From Thioalkalivibrio sp. (GTDB taxonomy: Bacteria > Pseudomonadota > Gammaproteobacteria > Ectothiorhodospirales > Ectothiorhodospiraceae): 43,117 nucleotides of DNA. Numbering within the stretch: the first letter of the stretch is position 1; every line of letters starts with the position of its first letter. Below the pieces are notes generated by a model that worked only from the letters and a program-made list of their open reading frames with translations, ran no database searches and was not told the origin of the DNA. The position numbers and the translations under genes were made by a program. Location: NCBI RefSeq assembly GCF_007692535.1, contig NZ_REBW01000135.1, positions 1-43,117 on the forward strand, in the 5' to 3' direction. Below, piece by piece: positions 8,072-30,623 of the stretch.

Positions 8072-9568
8072 TCAGGTTCCGCGCTTCGGGCGCAGGGCCG
8101 TGGTCCGCCCGGTCTCCGTGTTCAGTTCGAGCAGTTCCCCGGCACGATCCGGAGGAACTTCCGCCCAGTCGAAACGCCAGCGCCAGTTGCCCTTGGTGGT
8201 TCCCGGAGTGTTCATGCGGTGCGCGCTGCCCAGTTCCAGCGCATCCTGCATCGGGATCACCGCAAGCCGGGCCGGCGATATCATTGCCGCGCGGATCAGC
8301 GCCCAAGGCATGGAGGCGCCCTCCGGCTGACCGAGCTTGTCGAGGACCCGGGTCCGGGCCTCCGGCGGTAGCGAATCGAACCAGCCCCGCGTCGTGTCGT
8401 TGTCATGCGTGCCCGTATACACCACCCCGCGCTCGACGTGGTGCTCGGGGAGATAGGGATTGTCGGGGCCGCCGTCAAAGGCGAACTGCAGGATCTTCAT
8501 CCCGGGCAGCCCGTAGCGGTCACGCAGCGCCGTGACCTCGTTGGTGATCACGCCCAGGTCCTCCGCCAGCAGAGGCAGTTCCCCGAAGCGCTGCAGCAGC
8601 ATCTCGAAGAACGCGGCACCCGGCCCGGGTTTCCATTCTCCACCGATGGCCGTTGGCTCACTCGCGGGAATCGACCAGTAGGCCTCGAAGCCGCGGAAGT
8701 GATCGATGCGCAACGCGTCGAGGCCCTCGAGCGCCCAACCGATCCGCCGCAGCCACCAATCGTAGCCATGCTCGGCCATGTAGTCCCAGCGGTAATGCGG
8801 ATTGCCCCAGCGCTGACCGGTTTCGGAGAAATAATCCGGGGGGACCCCGGCCACCGTGTGCGGCTGGCCGTCCGCGTCCAGGTCGAAGTTCTCCGGATTC
8901 GCCCAGACATCGGCGGAGTCGTGGGCGACAAAGATCGGCATGTCGCCGAGCAGAAGAATGTCACGGGCATTGGCCTGGGCGCGCAGCGCCGACCATTGCC
9001 GGAAGAAAACGAACTGGGCAAAACGGACCGCTTCCAGCGCCTCTTTTGCCTCCGCACGCAACTGCTCCAGCCGCCCCGGCGAACGATGCAGCAGCGGCTC
9101 CGGCCAGGTCCACCAGGGACGGTTGCCTTGCAGCCGCTTGATCACCGCGAACAGGGCGAAGTCTTCCAGCCAGTCGGCCCGGGCCCGGCAGAACTCCAGG
9201 TAGTCCGCCCATCCCGCCCCACCCGCCGCCTCCACGGTTGCGCGCGCTTCCGAGAGCGCCTGCCCGATCGGCGCTCGCGCAGAGGCCGCACGGATCCAGC
9301 CGTCCTTGACCAGCGCTTCCAGATCGATCAGCCGGGTGTCTCCGGCGAAGGCGGAGACGCAGGCGTACGGGGAACCGTCGGCCTGCGGCGGGTTGATGGG
9401 CAGGATCTGCCAGACACTGAAACCGGCTTCCTCCAGCCAGCCGAGGAAACGCCTGGCCTCGGCGCCGATCCGGCCAACCGGTCCCGGACCCGGCAGGGAG
9501 GTGGGATGGAGGATCAACCCCGCGCGGCGTTTCTCCATCAGGCAGTTCTGGAGTTCGGTTTGGCTCAC
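8072..9568 (-). CDS. malQ: 4-alpha-glucanotransferase (amylomaltase, GH77)
   Basis: Transfers alpha-1,4-glucan segments between oligosaccharides and releases glucose. Family motifs are clear: GLILHPTSLPGPGPVGRIG, ILPINPPQADGSPYACVSAFAGD, DMPIFVAHDSADVWANP, LRIDHFRGFEAYW (catalytic Asp), LAEDLGVIT (acid/base Glu) and TGTHDNDTTRGWF. I chose the GTG start (498 aa) because it forms a GTGA overlap with the stop of the GH57 gene, implying translational coupling. The first ATG, 30 bases downstream (MEKRRAGL, 488 aa), lacks a visible Shine-Dalgarno but is a legitimate alternative. It is the last gene of the glgC-GH57-malQ unit, consistent with remodelling glucans released from glycogen. Confidence 0.95.
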   Translation of the reverse strand: MSQTELQNCLMEKRRAGLILHPTSLPGPGPVGRIGAEARRFLGWLEEAGFSVWQILPINPPQADGSPYACVSAFAGDTRLIDLEALVKDGWIRAASARAPIGQALSEARATVEAAGGAGWADYLEFCRARADWLEDFALFAVIKRLQGNRPWWTWPEPLLHRSPGRLEQLRAEAKEALEAVRFAQFVFFRQWSALRAQANARDILLLGDMPIFVAHDSADVWANPENFDLDADGQPHTVAGVPPDYFSETGQRWGNPHYRWDYMAEHGYDWWLRRIGWALEGLDALRIDHFRGFEAYWSIPASEPTAIGGEWKPGPGAAFFEMLLQRFGELPLLAEDLGVITNEVTALRDRYGLPGMKILQFAFDGGPDNPYLPEHHVERGVVYTGTHDNDTTRGWFDSLPPEARTRVLDKLGQPEGASMPWALIRAAMISPARLAVIPMQDALELGSAHRMNTPGTTKGNWRWRFDWAEVPPDRAGELLELNTETGRTTALRPKRGT

Positions 9569-12656: not shown

Positions 12657-14873
12657 ATGACAACAGCCTTGCACAAATGCATCCGCCCACAAGAGGGGGA
12701 ACTGGCCCGATTGCGCGAGGCTCGCTGGCACGACCCGCACCGGCTGCTGGGTCGTCACGCGCTGGATCACGAGACCTGCTGTTTCCGGACCTTCCTGCCG
12801 CATGCCACCGAGGCCTGGCTCATGGTCAGCACCGGCGAGTCGGCGGCGCTGCATCGGGAACCGATGGCTGCGCAGCCGGATTTTCCGGGCCTGTTCACCT
12901 GGACCGGTCCGCTGGCGAGCTGCCCGCTGTACCCGACCGTGCTCTGGGCGGAGGTTAACGGCCGGACGTTACAATTCGTCGATCCCTACAGCTTCCCCCC
13001 GCACATCTCCGATTTCGACCTGCACCTGTTCGGCGAGGGGCGCCATTGGCACGTCCACCGCATGCTCGGGGCGCACATCGAGACGCGGGATGGCGTCACC
13101 GGCGTCCGCTTCGCGGTCTGGGCACCGGCCGCGGAGCGGGTCAGCGTGGTCGGAGACTTCAATCACTGGGATGGCCGCGTCCATCCAATGACGGTGCACG
13201 GCAGCAGCGGGGTCTGGGAACTGTTCATCCCCGGGCTTCCCGACGGAACCCTGTACAAGTACGAGATCCGTAACCGGGATACGGGTCATATTCTATTGAA
13301 AAGCGACCCTTACGGCGCTTCTTTCGAGTTACGCCCGAATACGGCGAGCCGGGTCTTCGGCGGCTCCGGTTATGCCTGGAACGACGAGGCGTGGATGCAT
13401 CGCCGCGATCCCTATGCCTGGAAGCAACGTCCCCTGAGCGTGTACGAGGTGCATCTGGGGTCCTGGCAGCGGGGCGAGGACGGCCGCTTCCTCAGCTACC
13501 GGGAGTTGGCCGACCGGCTGATCCCCTACGTGCGTGACCACGGCTTCACCCATATCGAACTGCTCCCCGTCACCGAGCATCCCTTCGACGGATCCTGGGG
13601 CTATCAGAGCACCGGTTTCTTCGCCCCGACCTCGCGCCACGGCACACCGGACGATTTTCGCTTCCTGGTCGACCAGGCCCACCAGGCGAACATCGGCGTG
13701 CTGCTGGACTGGGTTCCGGGGCACTTCCCCAAGGACAGCTTCGCACTGGCGCGATTCGACGGCACCGCGCTGTACGAACACGAGGATCCGCGCAAGGGCG
13801 AACACCGCGACTGGGGTACCCTGATCTTCAATTACGGACGCTCGGAGGTCCGCAATTTCCTGCTCTCCAGCGCCCTGTGCTGGATCGAGGACTTCCATAT
13901 CGACGGCCTGCGGGTCGACGCCGTCGCATCGATGCTCTACCTCGACTACTCGCGCGAACCAAACGACTGGATCCCGAACGAATACGGCGGCAACGAGAAC
14001 CTCGAGGCCATCACCTTCCTGCGGGAACTGAACCGGACGATACAGACGAATCATCCCGGCATCCTGATGATCGCCGAGGAATCCACCGCCTGGCCCGGCG
14101 TGAGCCGTCCCCCGGAGACCGGGGGGCTCGGTTTCACGATGAAGTGGAACATGGGCTGGATGCACGACACCCTGGAGTACTTCAAGCAGGATCCCGTCTA
14201 TCGTTCGCACCGCCACAATCAGCTGACCTTCGGCATGCTGTATGCGTACACCGAGAACTTCGTTCTGCCCTTCTCCCACGACGAGGTGGTACACGGCAAG
14301 GGCAGTCTGCGCACCCGCATGCCGGGCAACGAATGGCAGCAGCACGCCCAGCTCCGCATGCTGTATGCGTATCAGTGGACTTACCCGGGCAAGAAGCTGC
14401 TGTTCATGGGCCAGGAATTCGGCCAGGGCACCGAGTGGGGCGAAGCCGGGCAACTCGACTGGTATGTGCTCGACTATCCCCTGCACAAGGGCCTGCTGAG
14501 CCTGGTGCGGGACCTGAACCACCTGTACCGGGACGACCCGGCGCTGCACGAGCGCGACTTCGAGCCGGAGGGTTTCGCGTGGCTGGACTGCGACGACGCC
14601 AGCCGCTCGGTACTCAGCTATCTGCGCCGGGGCAGCCACTCCAATCTCATCGTGGTGCTGAATTTCACGCCGGTCGAGCGCTTCAACTACGAGATTCCCG
14701 CGCCCCACGCAGGCTATTGGCGGGTGTTGATGAATACCGACTCCGAGTTCTACGGGGGAGCCTCGCGCGGCTCCGGCGGCGCCATGGCCGAGGCACAGCC
14801 CTACCGCGGATTCCCCGCGACCCTGCGCCTGGACCTGCCCCCGCTCGCGGTCCTCATCCTGGCCCCGGAATAG
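12657..14873 (+). CDS. glgB: 1,4-alpha-glucan branching enzyme (GH13)
   Basis: Introduces alpha-1,6 branches into glycogen. The 738 aa are typical for proteobacterial GlgB. Order: N-terminal module (about 10-105), CBM48 beta-sandwich ([25 protein letters not shown]), GH13 barrel, and C-terminal all-beta domain. Catalytic residues are visible: nucleophile Asp421 in [13 protein letters not shown], acid/base Glu474 in [15 protein letters not shown], and the transition-state pair in [24 protein letters not shown] and [12 protein letters not shown] are GlgB signatures. The start is the ATG after a weak CAGG Shine-Dalgarno. It is divergent from glgC, so synthesis and branching genes may share control. 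A tRNA gene follows 74 bases downstream. Confidence 0.97.
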
Positions 14874-14947: not shown

Positions 14948-15023
<76 letters not shown>

Positions 15024-15065: not shown

Positions 15066-15076
15066 CACCCCCACCA

Positions 15077-15367
15077 CCGGGGTCGGACCAAGCCAACCCA
15101 CTGGTTTTTCTGAACAAATGGCAAAAAAACACCCCCCCATAAGGCCTTAACGGGCCATTTTTGGCATCAAAAACGGCGCCTCAAGGTCGGAACCCCTGCC
15201 ACGCCCATTCCGGGTGACGATTCGCTACTGACATCGACCGGAAAACTCGATCCCTCCGCCTATGCGACCGTTTTGGGGGTCAAAAAGGACCGTATAAGGC
15301 GCCCATTCACCCGTTTTTACACCTATTATTCCATTTGTAACAACGACTTGGCTTGGTCCGACCCCGG
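15077..15367. repeat. Foldback (MITE-like) element with 20-bp perfect inverted ends
   Basis: The ends, starting CCGGGGTCGGACCAAG at 15077 and ending CTTGGTCCGACCCCGG at 15367, are perfect 20-bp inverted repeats. Similarity continues inward: ACAAATGG (15114-15121) pairs with CCATTTGT (15331-15338), and a stretch with ACGGGCCATTTTTGG...CAAAAACGG on the left resembles the complement of CCGTTTTGGGGGTCAAAAAGG on the right. The whole 291 bp is thus an imperfect long inverted repeat with no convincing gene. It fills the space between the tRNA terminator and the CPBP protease gene; its right end abuts that gene's upstream region. A diverged arm copy lies near 18.65-18.74 kb. No target-site duplication is obvious. 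Confidence 0.72.
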
Positions 15368-15383
15368 GGTTCGCAACGATCGA

Positions 15384-16115
15384 ATGAGAGAGCGAGGTGC
15401 TAAGACGAGAGCGCTGGCAGAGGCGCTGACGATTGTCCTCGTCGCGGCGGCTGTGGCGGTCGTGCTGCCGCTGGCGGTCATCACTGCAGTGGCGGCGGCG
15501 GGCATCGTGCTCCAGCCGGCGCTCGTGATCGTGCTTTCCATCGTGCTCACCCAGGGCGTGAGCTTCGGGGGTGTGGCGCTGCTTTACCTGGCGCTCCGAA
15601 GCGGCAGGATACACGTTCCGCTGAGGTGGCCGACGTCCAACGATCTGCGATGGATAGCCGGAGGCTCGGCGCTTGCGCTCGCTGCACTGAGCGTCGGTTT
15701 ACTCGTGGTGTCGCTTCTCGGTCTTGGCGTCGGCGAACACCGGATTCATGAGATCGGCGTAGAGCACCCCGAAGTTTTTCTTCTGCTCATACCGCTTTCG
15801 TTCCTGCTCATCGGGCCGGGTGAGGAACTCCTGTTTCGCGGCTTGGTACAAGGCCGCCTCCGCCAGGCTTTCGGTGCCGGCGCCTCGATCGCCCTCGCCT
15901 CGGTAACGTTTGCGGCTCTGCACGTCGTGGCGCTCAGCGGCCCGCTTGCTGCCCGCCTCACCACGGTGGCCGTACTCGTGTTGCCAAGTCTGGTTTTTGG
16001 CCTCGCATACGAACGCAGCGGCAACATCGCGGTGCCGGCGGTGATCCACGGCATTTACAATGCCATACTCTTTGCCGTGAGCTTCGCCGCGATACCGGCC
16101 GAGACCGGTGGTTGA
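15384..16115 (+). CDS. CPBP-family intramembrane metalloprotease (Abi/CAAX-like)
   Basis: 243-aa polytopic membrane protein with about six hydrophobic helices. The CPBP (Pfam Abi) motifs are intact: motif 1 GPGEELLFRGLVQGRLR (Glu147, Glu148, Arg152), motif 2 with His180 in FAALHVVALSG, and motif 3 with His222 and Asn226 in VPAVIHGIYNAI. These are the metal-binding and catalytic residues of Rce1-type glutamic/metalloproteases. I start at the ATG giving MRERGAKTRALAEAL; the frame is open upstream but enters the foldback repeat. Members process or degrade membrane proteins, and some are linked to bacteriocin immunity; the substrate here is unknown. It converges on the SLT lipoprotein gene. Confidence 0.85.
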   Translation: MRERGAKTRALAEALTIVLVAAAVAVVLPLAVITAVAAAGIVLQPALVIVLSIVLTQGVSFGGVALLYLALRSGRIHVPLRWPTSNDLRWIAGGSALALAALSVGLLVVSLLGLGVGEHRIHEIGVEHPEVFLLLIPLSFLLIGPGEELLFRGLVQGRLRQAFGAGASIALASVTFAALHVVALSGPLAARLTTVAVLVLPSLVFGLAYERSGNIAVPAVIHGIYNAILFAVSFAAIPAETGG

Positions 16116-18462: not shown

Positions 18463-18527
18463 CTTCGCCTGCAAGGCAGGCTCCTACAAGGGCAAAGGAC
18501 CCGTGGGAGCGTGCCTTGCGCGCGAAG
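18463..18527. repeat. Inverted REP pair (REPIN/BIME-like)
   Basis: Two REP-like units point in opposite directions 15 bases apart. Left, reverse strand: GTAGGAGCCTGCCTTGCAGG followed by CGAAG. Right, forward: GTGGGAGCGTGCCTTGCGCG followed by CGAAG. Both match the well-known GTAGGAGC...CTTGC...GCGAA pattern of gammaproteobacterial REPs that are mobilised by RAYT (TnpA-REP) enzymes. No RAYT gene is in the window. Confidence 0.75.
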
Positions 18528-18649: not shown

Positions 18650-18741
18650 GTGGGTCGAAAGCGGGCGTCCAATGCCTCAAATATCCCGGATTTACGGCTA
18701 TTTTTTCTCCAACAACCACTAGGCTTGGTCCGAACCCGGGG
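18650..18741 (+). repeat. Diverged single arm of the foldback repeat
   Basis: Reads in the same orientation as the right arm of the 15.08-15.37 kb element. Shared landmarks in order: GGGTCGAAA versus GGGTCAAAA; CCGGATTTACGGCTATT versus CCCGTTTTTACACCTATT; CAACAACCACTAGGCTTGG versus TAACAACGACTTGGCTTGG; then TCCGAACCCGGGG versus TCCGACCCCGGGG. I do not see a matching inverted arm nearby, so it looks like a half or decayed copy. Left boundary approximate. Confidence 0.6.
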
Positions 18742-24545: not shown

Positions 24546-24590
24546 GCTGCACCTCCAATTCTGGATCCGGATTATCCCGACATGCGGGCC

Positions 24591-26078
24591 TCAGAGACCG
24601 CGCGGCGGGCTGGGCGGATTGGGGGTTTCCAGACTGGGAGGCAGCCGGGATTTCCCCATCAGCCATATATCGATATGCCTTGCGACATCGCGCCCCTCGC
24701 CGATGGCCCAGACGACGATCGACTGACCGCGGCTGGCGTCGCCCGCGACGAAGACACCGGGTATGGCCGACATCTTCCGATCGTCGGTCTCCAGCGCCTT
24801 GCGTTCGGTCAACGTCAGGCGCCCATCCTGCAACGGTGCTACCTCCGGGCCTTCGAAGCCAATCGCGATCAAGACCAGATCGGCCGGAATCTCGATCCCG
24901 CTCTCGAGCACGATTTTCTCGATCCGTCGCCCCTGCCGGTCGCGTTTCCAGTCGACCCGCTCAGCGTCGATGTGGTTCACCTGCCCATCCCCGTCCGAGT
25001 CGATAAAGCCGGCGACATTGAGGCTGAAGGCCTCTTCCCCTCCCTCCTCCTGGGCGTAGGTCCTGCGGTAGGTCTGCGGCTGCTGCGGCCAAGGGTTGTC
25101 CACCGGACGCTGTTCCGGCGGGCAGGGATTGATGCTCACCTGCACCACCTCCCGGGCACCCTGACGGTGCGCGGTCGCGACACAGTCGGCACCGGTATCC
25201 CCGCCGCCGAGCACGACCACGCGCTTGCCGCGGACATCGGTCACTCCGTCCACCGGCCGCCCGGCCTGGCGGCGGTTTTCGGCGGTGAGATAGTCCATTC
25301 CAAACAGCACGCCTGACAGATCGCGCCCCGGCACTTGCACATCGCGCTGCCGCAGGGCACCGATGGCGAGGCACACTGCATCGAACTGCGCCTGCAGCTC
25401 GGCGATCGAGATATCGACACCGACGTTGACTCCCGTGCGGAACTCGATGCCCTCCTCACGCAGCTGCTGCACGCGACGGGAAACCATGCGCTTCTCGAAC
25501 TTGAAATCGGGGATGCCGTAGACCATCAGTCCGCCAATCGCATCGTCGCGCTCGAACACCGTGACTGCATGACCCGCGCGATTGAGCTGCTGGGCGGCCG
25601 CCAGCCCCGCCGGGCCGCTGCCGACGATCGCCACCCGCTTCCCGGTACGCTCGGCCGGCGGACGGGGGACGATCCAGCCTTTTTCCCAGCCCATGTCGAC
25701 GATGGCCCGCTCGATGTCCTTGATCGTAACCGCAGCGTCGTTGTACGCGAGCGTGCAGGCCGGTTCGCAGGGGGCGGGACAGGTGTAGCCGGTGAACTCG
25801 GGAAAGTTGTTGGTCGCATGCAGCCTTGCCAGCGCCTCCTCCCAGAGATCGCGGTAGACGAGGTCGTTCCACTCCGGAATGAGGTTCCCGATCGGGCAGC
25901 CGCCCATACAGGTGGGCACGCCGCAGTCCATGCAGCGCTGCCCCTGGGTGCGCAGCGCTTCCGTATCCCACTCAAACCGGTAGATCTGGCGGTAGTCCTG
26001 CGTGCGCGAACGCGCATCGCGGTAGCCGATTGTCCGGCGCGGGTGCTGCAGGAATCCATCGGGGTGATTTTCGGACAT
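24591..26078 (-). CDS. gltD: Glutamate synthase small subunit (beta)
   Basis: 495-aa NADPH-dependent subunit that passes electrons to GltB. The N-terminal Fe-S region has Cys49, 52, 57 and 61 (RCMDCGVPTCMGGCPIGN) and CPAPCEPAC further on. The FAD-binding fold is VAIVGSGPAGLAAAQQL with GGLMVYGIPDFK; the NADPH fold is VVVLGGGDTGADCVATAHRQ. The C-terminus has GVFVAGDASRGQSIVVWAIG. Length and motif order are standard for GltD. It starts 9 bases after the gltB stop, a typical coupled arrangement. Confidence 0.97.
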   Translation of the reverse strand: MSENHPDGFLQHPRRTIGYRDARSRTQDYRQIYRFEWDTEALRTQGQRCMDCGVPTCMGGCPIGNLIPEWNDLVYRDLWEEALARLHATNNFPEFTGYTCPAPCEPACTLAYNDAAVTIKDIERAIVDMGWEKGWIVPRPPAERTGKRVAIVGSGPAGLAAAQQLNRAGHAVTVFERDDAIGGLMVYGIPDFKFEKRMVSRRVQQLREEGIEFRTGVNVGVDISIAELQAQFDAVCLAIGALRQRDVQVPGRDLSGVLFGMDYLTAENRRQAGRPVDGVTDVRGKRVVVLGGGDTGADCVATAHRQGAREVVQVSINPCPPEQRPVDNPWPQQPQTYRRTYAQEEGGEEAFSLNVAGFIDSDGDGQVNHIDAERVDWKRDRQGRRIEKIVLESGIEIPADLVLIAIGFEGPEVAPLQDGRLTLTERKALETDDRKMSAIPGVFVAGDASRGQSIVVWAIGEGRDVARHIDIWLMGKSRLPPSLETPNPPSPPRGL

Positions 26079-26087
26079 GACGGGACC

Positions 26088-29000
26088 TCATGCAGCCCGG
26101 GGTGGGGGACGTACGCGGATATCCTTCCCGGTGGCAAGGTGCTGGGCCACGGCGTCCGCGTAGGCGTCGGGAACCACCTTGACGAAAGCCGCCAGCGACT
26201 TCTCCCACTCCGCCAGGATCCGTGCCGCCAGGCTGCTGCCGGTGTAGCTGACGTGGTTCTCCAGCAGGCGTCGAAGCAGCTCGCGGTCGCGGGCGTCCTC
26301 CACCGGCTCGATATGCCTGCCGTCCGGGTTCAGGTGCCGCTGCGCCAGCCCCTCCTCGTCGAAGACATAGGCCTCGCCACCGCTCATGCCGGCCCCGAAG
26401 TTCCGCCCGATCGGCCCCAGGATCACGGTAACCCCGCCGGTCATGTATTCACACCCATGGTCGCCCACCCCCTCGACGACACTGAGCGCACCGGAGTTGC
26501 GCACGCAGAAGCGCTCGGCTCCGCGACCGTTGAAATAGGCCTCGCCCCCAGTGGCACCAAAAAGCGCGACGTTGCCCAAGATCGTGTTCTCGGAAGCCGT
26601 GTAACCAGCGTCCGGCGGCGTGCGGACGCTGATGAGGCCACCGGAGAGCCCCTTGCCGGCGTAGTCGTTGGCATCGCCTTCCAGATGCAGCGCGATCCCA
26701 CGGCAAAGGAAGGCCCCGAAACTTTGTCCGGCGGTCCCCTTGCAGCGCAGGTTGATGGTCCCGGGTGGCAACCCCTCAGCGCCGTGGCGGTGCGTGACCT
26801 CATAGCTCAGGAGCGTACCGAAAGTACGGTCGCGGTTGCACAATGCGATCGCAATCTCGACCGGCCGGCGCTCGTCGAGCGCGGCCTCCGCCTGCTCGAT
26901 GACCCGGTGATCGATCTTGCGATCGAGTCCGTGATTCTGTGCGCGCGTCCTGCGCGGGGCGTCGTCGGACCTCACGCGCCGCAGCAGTTCCGATACATCG
27001 GGATGGATGCCCTTGGGATGCGTGATCTGTTTCGCCCGCAGCCTGTCCATCCGCCCGACCATGTCGTCCACGTGGTGGAACCCGAGCGCCGCCATGTGTT
27101 CGCGCACCTCGCCGGCGACGAAACGCAGGTAGTTGACGACATGCTCCGCACGACCCTGGAACCGCTCACGCAGACGCGGGTCCTGGGTGGCGATCCCGAC
27201 CGAGCAGGTATTGCAGTGACACTTGCGCAGCATGATGCAGCCGAGGGCCACCAGCGGCGCCGTGCCGAAACCGTACTCCTCGGCGCCCAGCAAGGCCGCG
27301 ATCACCACGTCGCGCCCCGTCAGGAACCCCCCGTCGGCGCGTACCGTGATGCGCGACCGCAGGCGGTTGGCCAGCAGCACGCGCTGGGTCTCGGCCAGCC
27401 CGAACTCCCAGGGCGCACCCGCGTGCTTGATCGAGGTCTTCAGAGAGGCTCCGGTGCCACCGGAATCACCGCTGATCAGCACCGCGTCGGCGCGCGCCTT
27501 GGCAACGCCGGCGGCGATGGTGCCGACATTGGCCTTGGCGACCAGTTTCACGTGGATCTCCGCCGTCGGATTGGCGCACTTCAGGTCGTGGATGAGCTGC
27601 TGCAGATCCTCGATCGAATAGATGTCGTGATGCGGCGGCGGCGAGATGAGACCGACGCCGGGGACCGTGAAGCGGACCTGGGCAATGCCCGCGTCCACCT
27701 TGCCGCCGGGGAGCTCGCCACCCTCCCCGGGTTTGGACCCCTGCGCCATCTTGATCTCGATCTGCCGGGCCCGGGCCAGGTAATGGGCGGTCACCCCGAA
27801 ACGGCCGCTCGCCACCTGTTTCATCGAGCACTCGCGCTCGGTGCCGAAGCGCTCGACCTGCTCGCCGCCCTCCCCCGTACCGGACTTGCCGCCGATGCGG
27901 TTCATCGCGATCGCGAGCGCCTCGTGGACCTCCTGGCTCAAAGCACCAAACGACATCGAGCCGGTGGAGAAACGCCGCATGATGGACTCGACCGGTTCCA
28001 CCGTTTCGAGGGGAATCGCCGAATCGGCACTGGTGGCGAACTCCAACAGGCCGCGCAGGTTGAACAGTGCACCGTCCTGCTGGCCGACATGGCGCGCGAA
28101 ATCGCGATAGGCCTCGGCGTCACTGCTGCGCGCCGCCTGCTGCAGCTTGCCGATCGTGTACGGGTTCCAGTGATGCCGCTCTCCATCGCGGCGCCAGTAG
28201 AGATGGCCGCCCGGGTCGAGCGGCAGGTTAGCAATCACCGGCACGCCGAACGCGATCTCGTGGGCCTCGAGGGTTTCCTGCTCCACTTCGTCCAGACCCA
28301 CTCCCGGAACATGGGCCGTCGTGCCGGTGAAATATTCGTCGATGAACTCGTGGTCCAACCCCATCGACTCGAAGATCTGCGCGCCCTTGTAGCCCTGCAG
28401 GGTCGAGATCCCCATCTTCGACATCACCTTCAGGATGCCGCCCTCGAGCGCCCTGCGATACTGCGCCAGTGCCTGTCCGACCTCGCCCTCGATATGGCCC
28501 GTTGCCACCATGTCGGCAACGCCCCGGTAGGCCAGCCACGGGTGCACGGCATCGGCCCCGTACCCGATCAGGGTGCAGACGTCGTGCACGGTATGGGGCT
28601 CACCCGCATCGAGCACGATCGCGGCACGGGTCCGCAGCCCCTTGCGGATGAGATGATGGTGCAGCGCCGACACCGCGAGCAGACTCGGGATTGCGACGCG
28701 CTCGGGTCCGACGGAGCGGTCGCTCAGCAACACGATCCCGCTGCCCGCGCCGATCGCCTGGACGGCGGCATGGCGCATCGCCCGGATCGCCGCGGCCATG
28801 GTGTGACCCTTCGGATAGGTGGTGTCGATCCGGCAACCGCGCAGACCATTGCGGTCGATCTGCTCGATCGCCCGTATCTGCGGGCCGCTCAGTATCGGCG
28901 AGTCGATGTACAACTGCCGGCAGTGCGCGGCCGTTTCCGCCAGCACATTCTCCCGGGGACCGATCGCGTCTCCGAGCGCAGTCACCAGTGCCTCGCGGAT

Positions 29001-30623
29001 GTAGTCCAGCGGCGGATTCGAAACCTGCGCGAACTGTTGCAGGAAGTAGTGGCTCAGGGGGCGTGGCCGTGACGACAGCACCGCCGGCGGCGTGTCGTTG
29101 CCCATCGCCCCGATCGGATCGCTTCCGCTGGTCGCCATGGGCTGTACCAGTACGCGCAGTGCCTCCATGGTGTGGCCGTATGCCCGCTGGTATTCGCCGA
29201 TGGGGCGCTCTAGCGGCTGCAGGCGGGTGTCCGTCTCGGACGGGTCGACCAGGTCGGCCAGCGACAGGCGCTGGCTCTTGAGCCAGGCCGCGTAGGGGCG
29301 TTCGGCGAGTTCGGCGAACACCTGGTCCTCGGGAACGATGCCGCCGCGGCCGGGGTCCAGGACCAATAGCGCTCCCGGTTGCAGCCGGCCCTTCTGCAGC
29401 ACCTCGCGCGCGGGAACATCCAGCACGCCGGTCTCGCTCGCCATGATCAGGCGCCGATCGCGGGTGATGCTGTACCGGCACGGCCGAAGACCGTTGCGAT
29501 CCAGTGCGGCCGCGACCTGTTCGCCGTCGGTGGCCACCACCAGCGCCGGCCCGTCCCAGGGCTCCATCAACGCGCTGTGATACGCATAGAAGGCGCGGCG
29601 CACCGGGTCCATGTGACGATCCTGTTCCCATGCCTCCGGTATGAGCATGCGCAGCGCATGCGGCAGGCTGCGACCGGCGGCGACCAGCAGTTCGAGCACG
29701 TTGTCGAGTTGGGCGCTGTCGCTGAGCCCTTCCCCGGTGAGCGGTTTGATCTTTTCGATATCGGTGCCGAAGTGCGGAGATGCGAGCGTTGCCTCGCGCG
29801 CCCGCATCCAGTTCTGGTTACCGCGCAGGGTATTGATTTCCCCGTTATGCACGAGGTAGCGGTACGGATGCGCGAGGTCCCAGGCTCCGAGCGTGTTGGT
29901 GGAGAAACGCGCATGCACGAGAACCAGGGCGGAGACGACCCGCCGATCCGAAAGGTCCGGATAATAGGACGCGAGCTGCGCACAGGTCAGCAGGCCCTTG
30001 TACACGACCGTCGTGCGCGACAGCGAGCAGATGTAGAAAACTTCTCTGCCGAATCCGACCAGCCCACGGTAGACCGCCTCGTTCTCGATCTCGCGCCGCA
30101 GCACATACAGCCTGACGTCCAGCACCGAGGGTTCGAGCGGCTTCGTTGGCCGGACGAAGAACTGCTGGGTCACCGGCTCGCTTTCGAGTGCTGTCTGTCC
30201 CAGTCCGCGGTTGTCTGTGGGCACGTCGCGCCAGGCGATCAGGTCGAACCCCCTGCTCCGGCAGCGGCCCGCGACGAGCGCCCGGATCGCGGCCCGGTGG
30301 TCCGCATCACGGGGCATGAAGACCTGGCCCACACCGTACTGGTCGGATGCACCGAGCCCGGGCACCACCTCCTGGAAGAACCCGTGCGGCTTCTGCAGCA
30401 GCATGCCGGCACCATCTCCGGTGTCCTCCTCGGCGCCCCGCGCACCCCGATGATCGAGGTTCTCCAGGCACTGCAGGCCGTCCAGCACCAGCCGATGGCT
30501 TCGGTTGCCGTCCAGATGCGCCAGTACACCCACGCCACAGCTCGAATGACTGGCCGCGAGGAATTGCGCTGTTTCCGGCGCCCCGGCCGATGCCGGAGTA
30601 CGCGAACTCAGGAACGCTGTCAT
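26088..30623 (-). CDS. gltB: Glutamate synthase large subunit (alpha)
   Basis: 1511-aa GltB, which makes two glutamates from glutamine and 2-oxoglutarate. N-terminal glutamine amidotransferase: the nucleophile is Cys29 in SSCGVGVLAHLDG, so a 28-residue propeptide must be removed. A central domain follows, then the FMN domain (KSGTGEGGEQVERFG, MAQGSKPGEGGELPG, SPPPHHDIYSIEDL, LISGDSGGTGASLKTSIKHAG), the 3Fe-4S cysteines in RKCHCNTCSVGIATQDP, and a C-terminal GXGXG beta-helix (GLISVRTPPDAGYTASENTI). First gene of gltB-gltD-CBS, with about 420 bases of gene-free DNA upstream. Together with the GS gene this gives a complete GS-GOGAT route. Full length, no frameshift seen. Confidence 0.98.
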   Translation of the reverse strand: MTAFLSSRTPASAGAPETAQFLAASHSSCGVGVLAHLDGNRSHRLVLDGLQCLENLDHRGARGAEEDTGDGAGMLLQKPHGFFQEVVPGLGASDQYGVGQVFMPRDADHRAAIRALVAGRCRSRGFDLIAWRDVPTDNRGLGQTALESEPVTQQFFVRPTKPLEPSVLDVRLYVLRREIENEAVYRGLVGFGREVFYICSLSRTTVVYKGLLTCAQLASYYPDLSDRRVVSALVLVHARFSTNTLGAWDLAHPYRYLVHNGEINTLRGNQNWMRAREATLASPHFGTDIEKIKPLTGEGLSDSAQLDNVLELLVAAGRSLPHALRMLIPEAWEQDRHMDPVRRAFYAYHSALMEPWDGPALVVATDGEQVAAALDRNGLRPCRYSITRDRRLIMASETGVLDVPAREVLQKGRLQPGALLVLDPGRGGIVPEDQVFAELAERPYAAWLKSQRLSLADLVDPSETDTRLQPLERPIGEYQRAYGHTMEALRVLVQPMATSGSDPIGAMGNDTPPAVLSSRPRPLSHYFLQQFAQVSNPPLDYIREALVTALGDAIGPRENVLAETAAHCRQLYIDSPILSGPQIRAIEQIDRNGLRGCRIDTTYPKGHTMAAAIRAMRHAAVQAIGAGSGIVLLSDRSVGPERVAIPSLLAVSALHHHLIRKGLRTRAAIVLDAGEPHTVHDVCTLIGYGADAVHPWLAYRGVADMVATGHIEGEVGQALAQYRRALEGGILKVMSKMGISTLQGYKGAQIFESMGLDHEFIDEYFTGTTAHVPGVGLDEVEQETLEAHEIAFGVPVIANLPLDPGGHLYWRRDGERHHWNPYTIGKLQQAARSSDAEAYRDFARHVGQQDGALFNLRGLLEFATSADSAIPLETVEPVESIMRRFSTGSMSFGALSQEVHEALAIAMNRIGGKSGTGEGGEQVERFGTERECSMKQVASGRFGVTAHYLARARQIEIKMAQGSKPGEGGELPGGKVDAGIAQVRFTVPGVGLISPPPHHDIYSIEDLQQLIHDLKCANPTAEIHVKLVAKANVGTIAAGVAKARADAVLISGDSGGTGASLKTSIKHAGAPWEFGLAETQRVLLANRLRSRITVRADGGFLTGRDVVIAALLGAEEYGFGTAPLVALGCIMLRKCHCNTCSVGIATQDPRLRERFQGRAEHVVNYLRFVAGEVREHMAALGFHHVDDMVGRMDRLRAKQITHPKGIHPDVSELLRRVRSDDAPRRTRAQNHGLDRKIDHRVIEQAEAALDERRPVEIAIALCNRDRTFGTLLSYEVTHRHGAEGLPPGTINLRCKGTAGQSFGAFLCRGIALHLEGDANDYAGKGLSGGLISVRTPPDAGYTASENTILGNVALFGATGGEAYFNGRGAERFCVRNSGALSVVEGVGDHGCEYMTGGVTVILGPIGRNFGAGMSGGEAYVFDEEGLAQRHLNPDGRHIEPVEDARDRELLRRLLENHVSYTGSSLAARILAEWEKSLAAFVKVVPDAYADAVAQHLATGKDIRVRPPPRAA

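Follow-up and report, generated by a model that had tools for sequence, protein, structure and literature searches.

The window, by which we mean the whole stretch of 43,117 nucleotides analysed here, holds a foldback element between a tRNA-Ala(cgc) gene and a gene for a CPBP/Rce1-like membrane protease. The preliminary description had reported perfect 20-bp inverted ends, and these are found at exactly 15077–15096 and 15348–15367; the element proper spans 15079–15365 and is accompanied on each side by 4 nt that we call its foot. It is free of genes, as had been claimed, in that no open reading frame of at least 60 amino acids lies wholly inside it, and the core GGGTCGGACC occurs in the window at the two ends of the foldback only (expected number, 0.19). 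Between the tRNA gene and the element stands an apparent terminator, GGCACC-TAC-GGGTGCC-TTTT, and the likely start of the CPBP gene follows the right foot by ~15 bp. The features are as follows, together with a related element elsewhere in the genome.

14948–15023, plus strand: tRNA-Ala (cgc), neighbour
15075–15078, plus strand: left external tetranucleotide (foot), CACC, from base counts in the genome's own flanks and the within-element foot match in distant loci
15077–15096, plus strand: left 20-bp perfect inverted repeat
15079–15105, plus strand: left terminal motif, family consensus about GGGGTCGGACCAAGnCAAnnCATTGA, from tip pairing and arm alignment
15139–15191, plus strand: left inner palindrome (48.3 bits)
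15192–15252, no strand: variable middle, with no match to the transposase unit
15253–15305, minus strand: right inner palindrome (43.2 bits)
15339–15365, minus strand: right terminal motif, inverted copy, from tip pairing and arm alignment
15348–15367, minus strand: right 20-bp perfect inverted repeat
15366–15369, minus strand: right external tetranucleotide, CCCC on the minus strand, from the genome's own flanks
15384–16115, plus strand: CPBP/Rce1-like membrane protease gene, neighbour (PF02517, 66 bits), likely start at the ATG at 15384
18685–18739, plus strand: right-half relic of another copy of the family, with a one-mismatch tip at 18724–18737
Contig C182, 12644–13578: transposase-bearing element, 935 bp

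Near the half relic, at 18464–18526, the window also contains a canonical-looking REP doublet of the GTGG type (TTCGCCTGCAAGGCAGGCTCCTAC ... GTGGGAGCGTGCCTTGCGCGCGAA). Three tips of the family lie near tRNA genes, namely that at 15079 in the window (55 nt from tRNA-Ala), one at position 2079 of stretch L074 (16 nt from a tRNA-Arg) and one at position 372 of stretch L068 (~137 nt from a tRNA-Ser).

The genome that holds the window (G000, 3.13 Mb in 277 contigs, from a soda-lake relative of Thioalkalivibrio) contains the tip GGGGTCGGACCAAG at 62 places with at most one mismatch, against 0 for the reversed-pattern control, and the 291-bp sequence used as a query retrieves from it full-length relatives 70–73% identical to the window copy, plus many half-matches. 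The end sequence of the foldback is the tip of its family and not unique, and the possibility that the arms occur nowhere else in the genome falls away, the family being dispersed. Pairing of tips on the contigs and stretches around the matches gave 26 candidate pairs and 19 single tips; five pairs were dropped for a second end that had 3–4 mismatches or lay in unrelated sequence, and the 21 kept comprise 20 gene-less copies of 172–340 bp (median 275) and one 935-bp copy with a gene. Tips, inner palindromes and spacing are common to the gene-less copies and the transposase-bearing one, which bears out the MITE-like behaviour suggested earlier: the copies are short, multi-copy and non-coding (as judged from the open reading frames of the window copy), and they share their inverted ends with a transposase-bearing copy, the putative autonomous element, in their own genome. 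These ends are dispersed there as both paired and single repeats, as are some terminal repeats of TIRtrons. We considered whether the gene-less middle could be what remains of a deleted transposase gene, and rejected this, as no part of the middle matched that unit. Stretch L075 on C182 shows, at 8996–9185, another repeat family, whose inverted arms are TGTGGGAGG...CCTCCCACA and which has many matches in the relative G014.

Read from the outside in, an end consists of the external tetranucleotide, a G-rich tip (GGGGTCGGACC), ~50 nt and an inner palindrome. When both arms of the 21 copies are aligned, a terminal motif of ~27 nt comes first, then ~35 nt of spacer with little conservation, and last an imperfect palindrome that measures ~40–45 nt and has the consensus GGCCTTAnAGGCCCnTTTTTnGCCCCAAAAAnGGnCnnCTAAG. 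Tips are nearly identical (0.957), and spacers have drifted (0.342). The 172-bp copy on C215 has one central palindrome between its two tips, its coordinates being the same for the left and the right arm. A model of the inner palindrome built from 41 arms gave, across the genome at E ≤ 0.01, 90 rows that by manual count represent 56 distinct places; ~16 of these were absent from the set used to build the model, and 15 adjoin an independently found tip, the exception being C37:7771. As a conserved RNA or single-stranded DNA hairpin the inner palindrome fares weakly: paired cells amount to 70.1% against 69.0% in shuffles, one column pair only clearly co-varies (11–44: A-U 25, G-C 9), and RNAalifold returned no consensus structure for it.

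In the window copy, the homology previously proposed between inner segments of the two arms holds at the inner palindrome and does not extend along the whole arm; past the terminal ~27 nt, the arms are alike mainly there. Across 20 elements (the 172-bp copy was excluded because its arms overlap), a left arm is 0.551 identical to its own right arm and 0.555 identical to the right arms of other elements (permutation p 0.66). The arms of one copy are no more alike than those of different copies and do not co-vary, and we therefore regard the "very long hairpin" of the preliminary description as more likely a by-product of the inverted ends than a functional unit. Folding as such is strong, as had been anticipated: the RNA of the strand reaches –111 kcal/mol against –82.2 ± 5.1 for shuffles (z –5.7), and the foldback folded as DNA gives z –6.5.

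The sister genome G027 has the element at this locus too; there the left arm matches at 92/113 positions (81%), the right arm at 98/112 (88%), the middle at 58/64 (91%) and the CPBP gene at 628/715 (88%). A sequence fixed here in all relatives, with arms that do not co-vary, had been named as evidence against a mobile element; of this, the shared locus in G027 and the lack of co-variation were found. These data bear on a reading in which the transcribed foldback is a structured RNA, or a regulator at the transcript level, that controls the CPBP gene or protects or terminates an mRNA. Its folding energy, the short distance to the likely CPBP start and its persistence in G027 would suit such a role. 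However, Rfam returned the tRNA as its sole match and none for the element, arms within elements lack co-variation, elements of this kind are found, with paired tips, at 20 further places, and conservation of the arms in G027 does not exceed that of the CPBP gene, although the middle is well kept. We consider this explanation highly improbable.

The preliminary description had called for a transposase with the same ends, and the 935-bp unit on C182 supplies one, a RAYT-type HUH/Y1 gene. Its open frame of 275 amino acids is intact (257 from what is probably the likelier ATG, at 12760) and contains a Y1_Tnp domain, scoring over the cut-off, at C182:12790–13122; the HUH pair H60 and H62 and the tyrosine Y120 are invariant in 17/17 aligned sequences. 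PF01797 is the only Pfam match at E ≤ 1, with no match to a C-terminal domain of the DnaA_C, HTH_23 or HTH_28 kind. The NCBIfam model for REP-associated tyrosine transposases (NF047646) gives 66 bits, below its cut-off of 80, and the IS200 model (NF033573) 18.5 bits, for a cut-off of 55. A phmmer search of PDB with the single protein found no relative; the profile of 17 rows ranked E. coli TnpAREP (4ER8) first, weakly (E 0.1), and PHROGs had no family for the protein. This gene is the only close copy in its genome. A second, different Y1_Tnp gene (G000:C92:212–574, stretch L085) is possibly the enzyme of the GTGG-type REPs. The ATG of the transposase is preceded by AAGGAGG, which falls within the distal leg of the left inner palindrome or just beside it, so that read-through transcripts could hide the ribosome site. 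Behind the unit, at 13579–13735 of L075, lies a second right arm, and the flank similarity with G017 runs on through it.

The transposase-bearing copy adjoins the same genes in G003, G015, G017, G023 and G027, which suggests a vertically kept gene, as expected of a domesticated gene and not of an active insertion sequence. Several other gene-less copies are also common to G000 and G027. The empty site that had been sought was not met in pristine form among the loci fetched: the copy on C18 is absent in G019 between the same two genes, with a diverged spacer; that on C134 has collapsed in G027, where a few left-tip bases and the right tip remain and ~245 bp are gone; and a gene-less copy of G017 is absent in G003, apparently with an end-like remnant left behind. 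Since the "empty" alleles of G027 and G003 keep tip remnants, they may be deletions and not pre-insertion sites. In G017 the tRNA and CPBP genes are separated by ~12 kb that include a segment homologous to positions 24589–30545 of the window, and in G003, G015 and G023 they are on different contigs; the window copy thus lies at a synteny break, and this locus offers no empty site. In the tip-dense stretches L070 (C140) and L075 (C182), gene order differs between G000 and G027, G017 or G019, which suggests recombination between copies.

Such observations raise the question of whether the element is extinct and its copies are relics, which are mobilised no more and change place only by homologous recombination between repeats. 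This would account for full-length copies that are only ~70–73% identical to the window copy, for a single-copy, syntenic transposase and for the position of the window copy at a synteny break. Against it stand the intact transposase frame, the near-identity of the tips while the spacers drift, and close subfamilies (three copies on C182, two on C134) that suggest later amplification, and we hold it to be rather doubtful.

Among 30 genomes of the genus, own included, at least four exact AAG tips together with 0–2 W-CG tips occur in G000, G003, G014, G015, G017, G019, G023, G027 and G028, and 1–15 W-CG tips with at most two AAG tips in G001, G002, G005, G009, G011, G013, G020, G021, G022, G024, G025, G026 and G029; G004 has one W-CG tip, and seven further genomes have at most one AAG tip and zero W-CG tips. 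The reversed control per genome gives 0 for AAG and 0–2 for W-CG, so single W-CG matches mean little. Transposases 74–94% identical to that of G000 are found in G003, G015, G017, G023 and G027 (two of them fragments), and full-length ones 61–65% identical in G001, G005, G009, G011, G013, G021, G022 and G024, as well as in G036 from another genus. The ends of the transposase units themselves follow the same AAG/W-CG split. Judged from these sequences, tip variant appears to track transposase clade within the genus, a pattern that species history could also give. G014, G019 and G028 (58–77% complete) have many tips and no transposase match.

A scan of contigs for related transposases extends the comparison to other phyla. 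Its best 80 loci, many of them on MAG contigs, include records of Thioalkalivibrio, other Gammaproteobacteria, Burkholderiales, the Desulfobacterota type, Nitrospirota and Scalindua. An exact inverted repeat of at least 10 nt surrounds the gene at 57 of the 74 of these loci with enough flank, and when our own copy is added to the best 80, the tip core is present on both sides at 55/81 loci, in 52 of which the unit measures 900–1000 bp. The inner-palindrome model matches 85 distinct places in the best 80 loci at E ≤ 0.01; 65 of them lie at the borders of the transposase gene, which make up 9.4% of this DNA, and the remaining 20 are all (20/20) within 110 nt of a tip core. A border palindrome accompanies the gene at 46/80 loci and at 34/68 outside Thioalkalivibrio, the other 34 of these 68 having none at E ≤ 0.01. 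These counts show that the modular end layout recurs around related transposases of several phyla. At the locus L136 (G016:C4, 1301–3090), a more distant RAYT gene is flanked left and right by clusters of tandem GGGGTCAGACCCC palindromes.

The two ends of each element can be compared with each other base by base. In 61 flanks from G000, C stands at –1, –2 and –4 in 42, 41 and 37 cases (p 5e-9, 2e-8 and 4e-6 against base composition), giving CNCC feet, whereas the feet of the W-CG lineage are TAAC-like: outside W-CG tips of this other lineage of the genus we find A-T-A-A-C, with C at –1 in 25/26, T at –4 in 17/26 and A at –3 in 18/26. The left and right tetranucleotides of one element match at 0.476, against 0.285 between different elements (52 loci), and in 37 loci outside Thioalkalivibrio at 0.432 against 0.266 (0/5000 permutations); for this latter test, two near-duplicates were removed and 73 of the best 80 loci used, both tips being present in 51. 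Positions –1 and –3 bear most of the signal, –2 (p 0.16) and –4 (p 0.06) less, and positions –6 to –5 have no left-right match (0.270 vs 0.255, p 0.44). Within the tip, positions 12–14 match between left and right ends (0.649 vs 0.435, 0/5000 permutations), and positions 22–30 do not match within elements. The external tetranucleotide, in our reading, probably belongs to the end that is recognised, and its position is comparable to that of a REP foot or of the cleavage/target tetranucleotide of IS200/IS605. Guide pairing between foot and tip of the kind seen in IS608 was tried at 26 offsets, for complementarity and direct match, and is unconvincing, as the lowest p was 0.026 over 52 tests. Target duplications, also sought, are not apparent: of 21 elements 0 have an exact one at k = 2–9, with no excess identity, as expected of a HUH enzyme and unlike a MITE of a DDE-type insertion sequence. 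Elements of the IS200/IS605 family have a HUH/Y1 transposase and neither terminal inverted repeats nor target duplication.

The feet also bear on whether the copies are REPINs or BIMEs, that is, two inverted REP sequences mobilised by a RAYT, as in the REPIN/RAYT systems reportedly treated by Bertels and Rainey in 2011. The RAYT-type enzyme (by its NF047646 score, though below cut-off), the REP-like placement of the tetranucleotide on the 5' side of a palindromic core, and the occurrence of tips both singly and in inverted pairs are what one would expect of them. Yet neither the CNCC feet of G000 nor the TAAC-like ones of the W-CG lineage are GT[AG]G, which excludes strict membership of the REPs or REPINs; the copies measure 172–340 bp and have a second, inner palindrome, and the RAYT copies have terminal inverted repeats. 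Overall, this assignment seems to us unlikely.

Taking these alternatives into account, we favour, at a probability of about 0.78, the interpretation that the window copy is old and non-autonomous and belongs to a family of transposable elements in which the 935-bp unit on C182, with its RAYT-type HUH/Y1 transposase, is the autonomous form. The gene-less copies appear to be moved by this single gene elsewhere in the genome, movement being deduced from sequence comparison, and on our reading the copy in the window is a passenger, MITE-like and dependent on a RAYT that bears TIRs ("TIRYT"). We hypothesize that the transposase reads two parts of each end, the tip and the inner palindrome, probably on single-stranded DNA, as do TnpA of IS200/IS605 and TnpAREP, and that it nicks beside the external tetranucleotide. 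Any segment bounded by two such ends could then be copied or moved; the gene-less copies would be passengers and the long foldback a side effect of inverted ends, one that may make copies prone to internal deletion.

The closest known systems are TIRtrons or TIRYTs (Di Nocera 2013, PMC3733652), in which, as in our unit, a RAYT-like HUH/Y1 gene lies between terminal inverted repeats that have no relation to GTAG REPs; according to the parts of that paper drawn on here, some of these repeats are also present at other places of the genome, single, as dimers or in groups. The motif GGGGWSAS is described there for some TIRs, not all; our tip core GGGGTCGG does not fit it, and GGGTCAG variants occur in a few of the best 80 distant loci. 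In the same parts of PMC3733652 we noticed no external tetranucleotide matched between ends, and no gene-less units of 250–340 bp whose arms each have an inner palindrome. TnpAREP subclass 2.1, which probably corresponds to TIRYTs in the view of the authors of PMC6006769, shares, as far as that text as consulted goes, the catalytic core of the C182 transposase and may differ in having C-terminal DnaA_C or HTH-like domains, of which Pfam found none in our protein. REPIN/RAYT systems, in the passages used of PMC2817692 (Nunvar 2010) and PMC8266576, resemble our family as non-autonomous inverted doublets tied to one RAYT and in the tetranucleotide 5' of a palindrome, and differ in foot sequence, length and terminal-inverted-repeat architecture; the REP listed for Thioalkalivibrio HL-EbGR7, GTAGGTCGGCCTTCAGGCCGAC, is unlike our tip. 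With IS200/IS605, as portrayed in the relevant part of PMC6006769, the family has in common a HUH/Y1 transposase, no target duplication and a tetranucleotide next to the end, and it differs by its terminal inverted repeats and by an NF033573 score below cut-off.

Judged by title, and among the papers retrieved that contain GGGGTCGGACC, GGGGTCAGACC, GGTCGGACCAAG or GGGGWSAS, PMC3733652 alone concerns bacterial repeats. Passengers of a TIR-bearing RAYT are a kind of element already known; the portions consulted of PMC6006769, PMC2817692, PMC3733652 and PMC8266576 mention no large gene-less units, no end in two parts and no external tetranucleotide that matches between left and right. Elements with two ends comparable within species and between them provide a sequence-based handle on the bases that a RAYT-type enzyme reads (foot, tip positions 12–14, inner palindrome), which bears on how such enzymes spread REPs and why some have inverted ends, and is testable in vitro with oligonucleotides. 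Tentatively, and at somewhat less than even odds, TIR-bearing RAYTs may constitute a widespread class of symmetric HUH transposons with a bipartite end code, comprising a lineage-specific external tetranucleotide, a near-invariant mini-palindrome GGTCGGACC, a three-base specificity spot (tip 12–14) that co-varies between ends and an inner palindrome ~60 nt in, with one enzyme maintaining its own gene-less population. If so, each genome would bear a readable pairing of transposase and end, bridging insertion sequences and REPINs.
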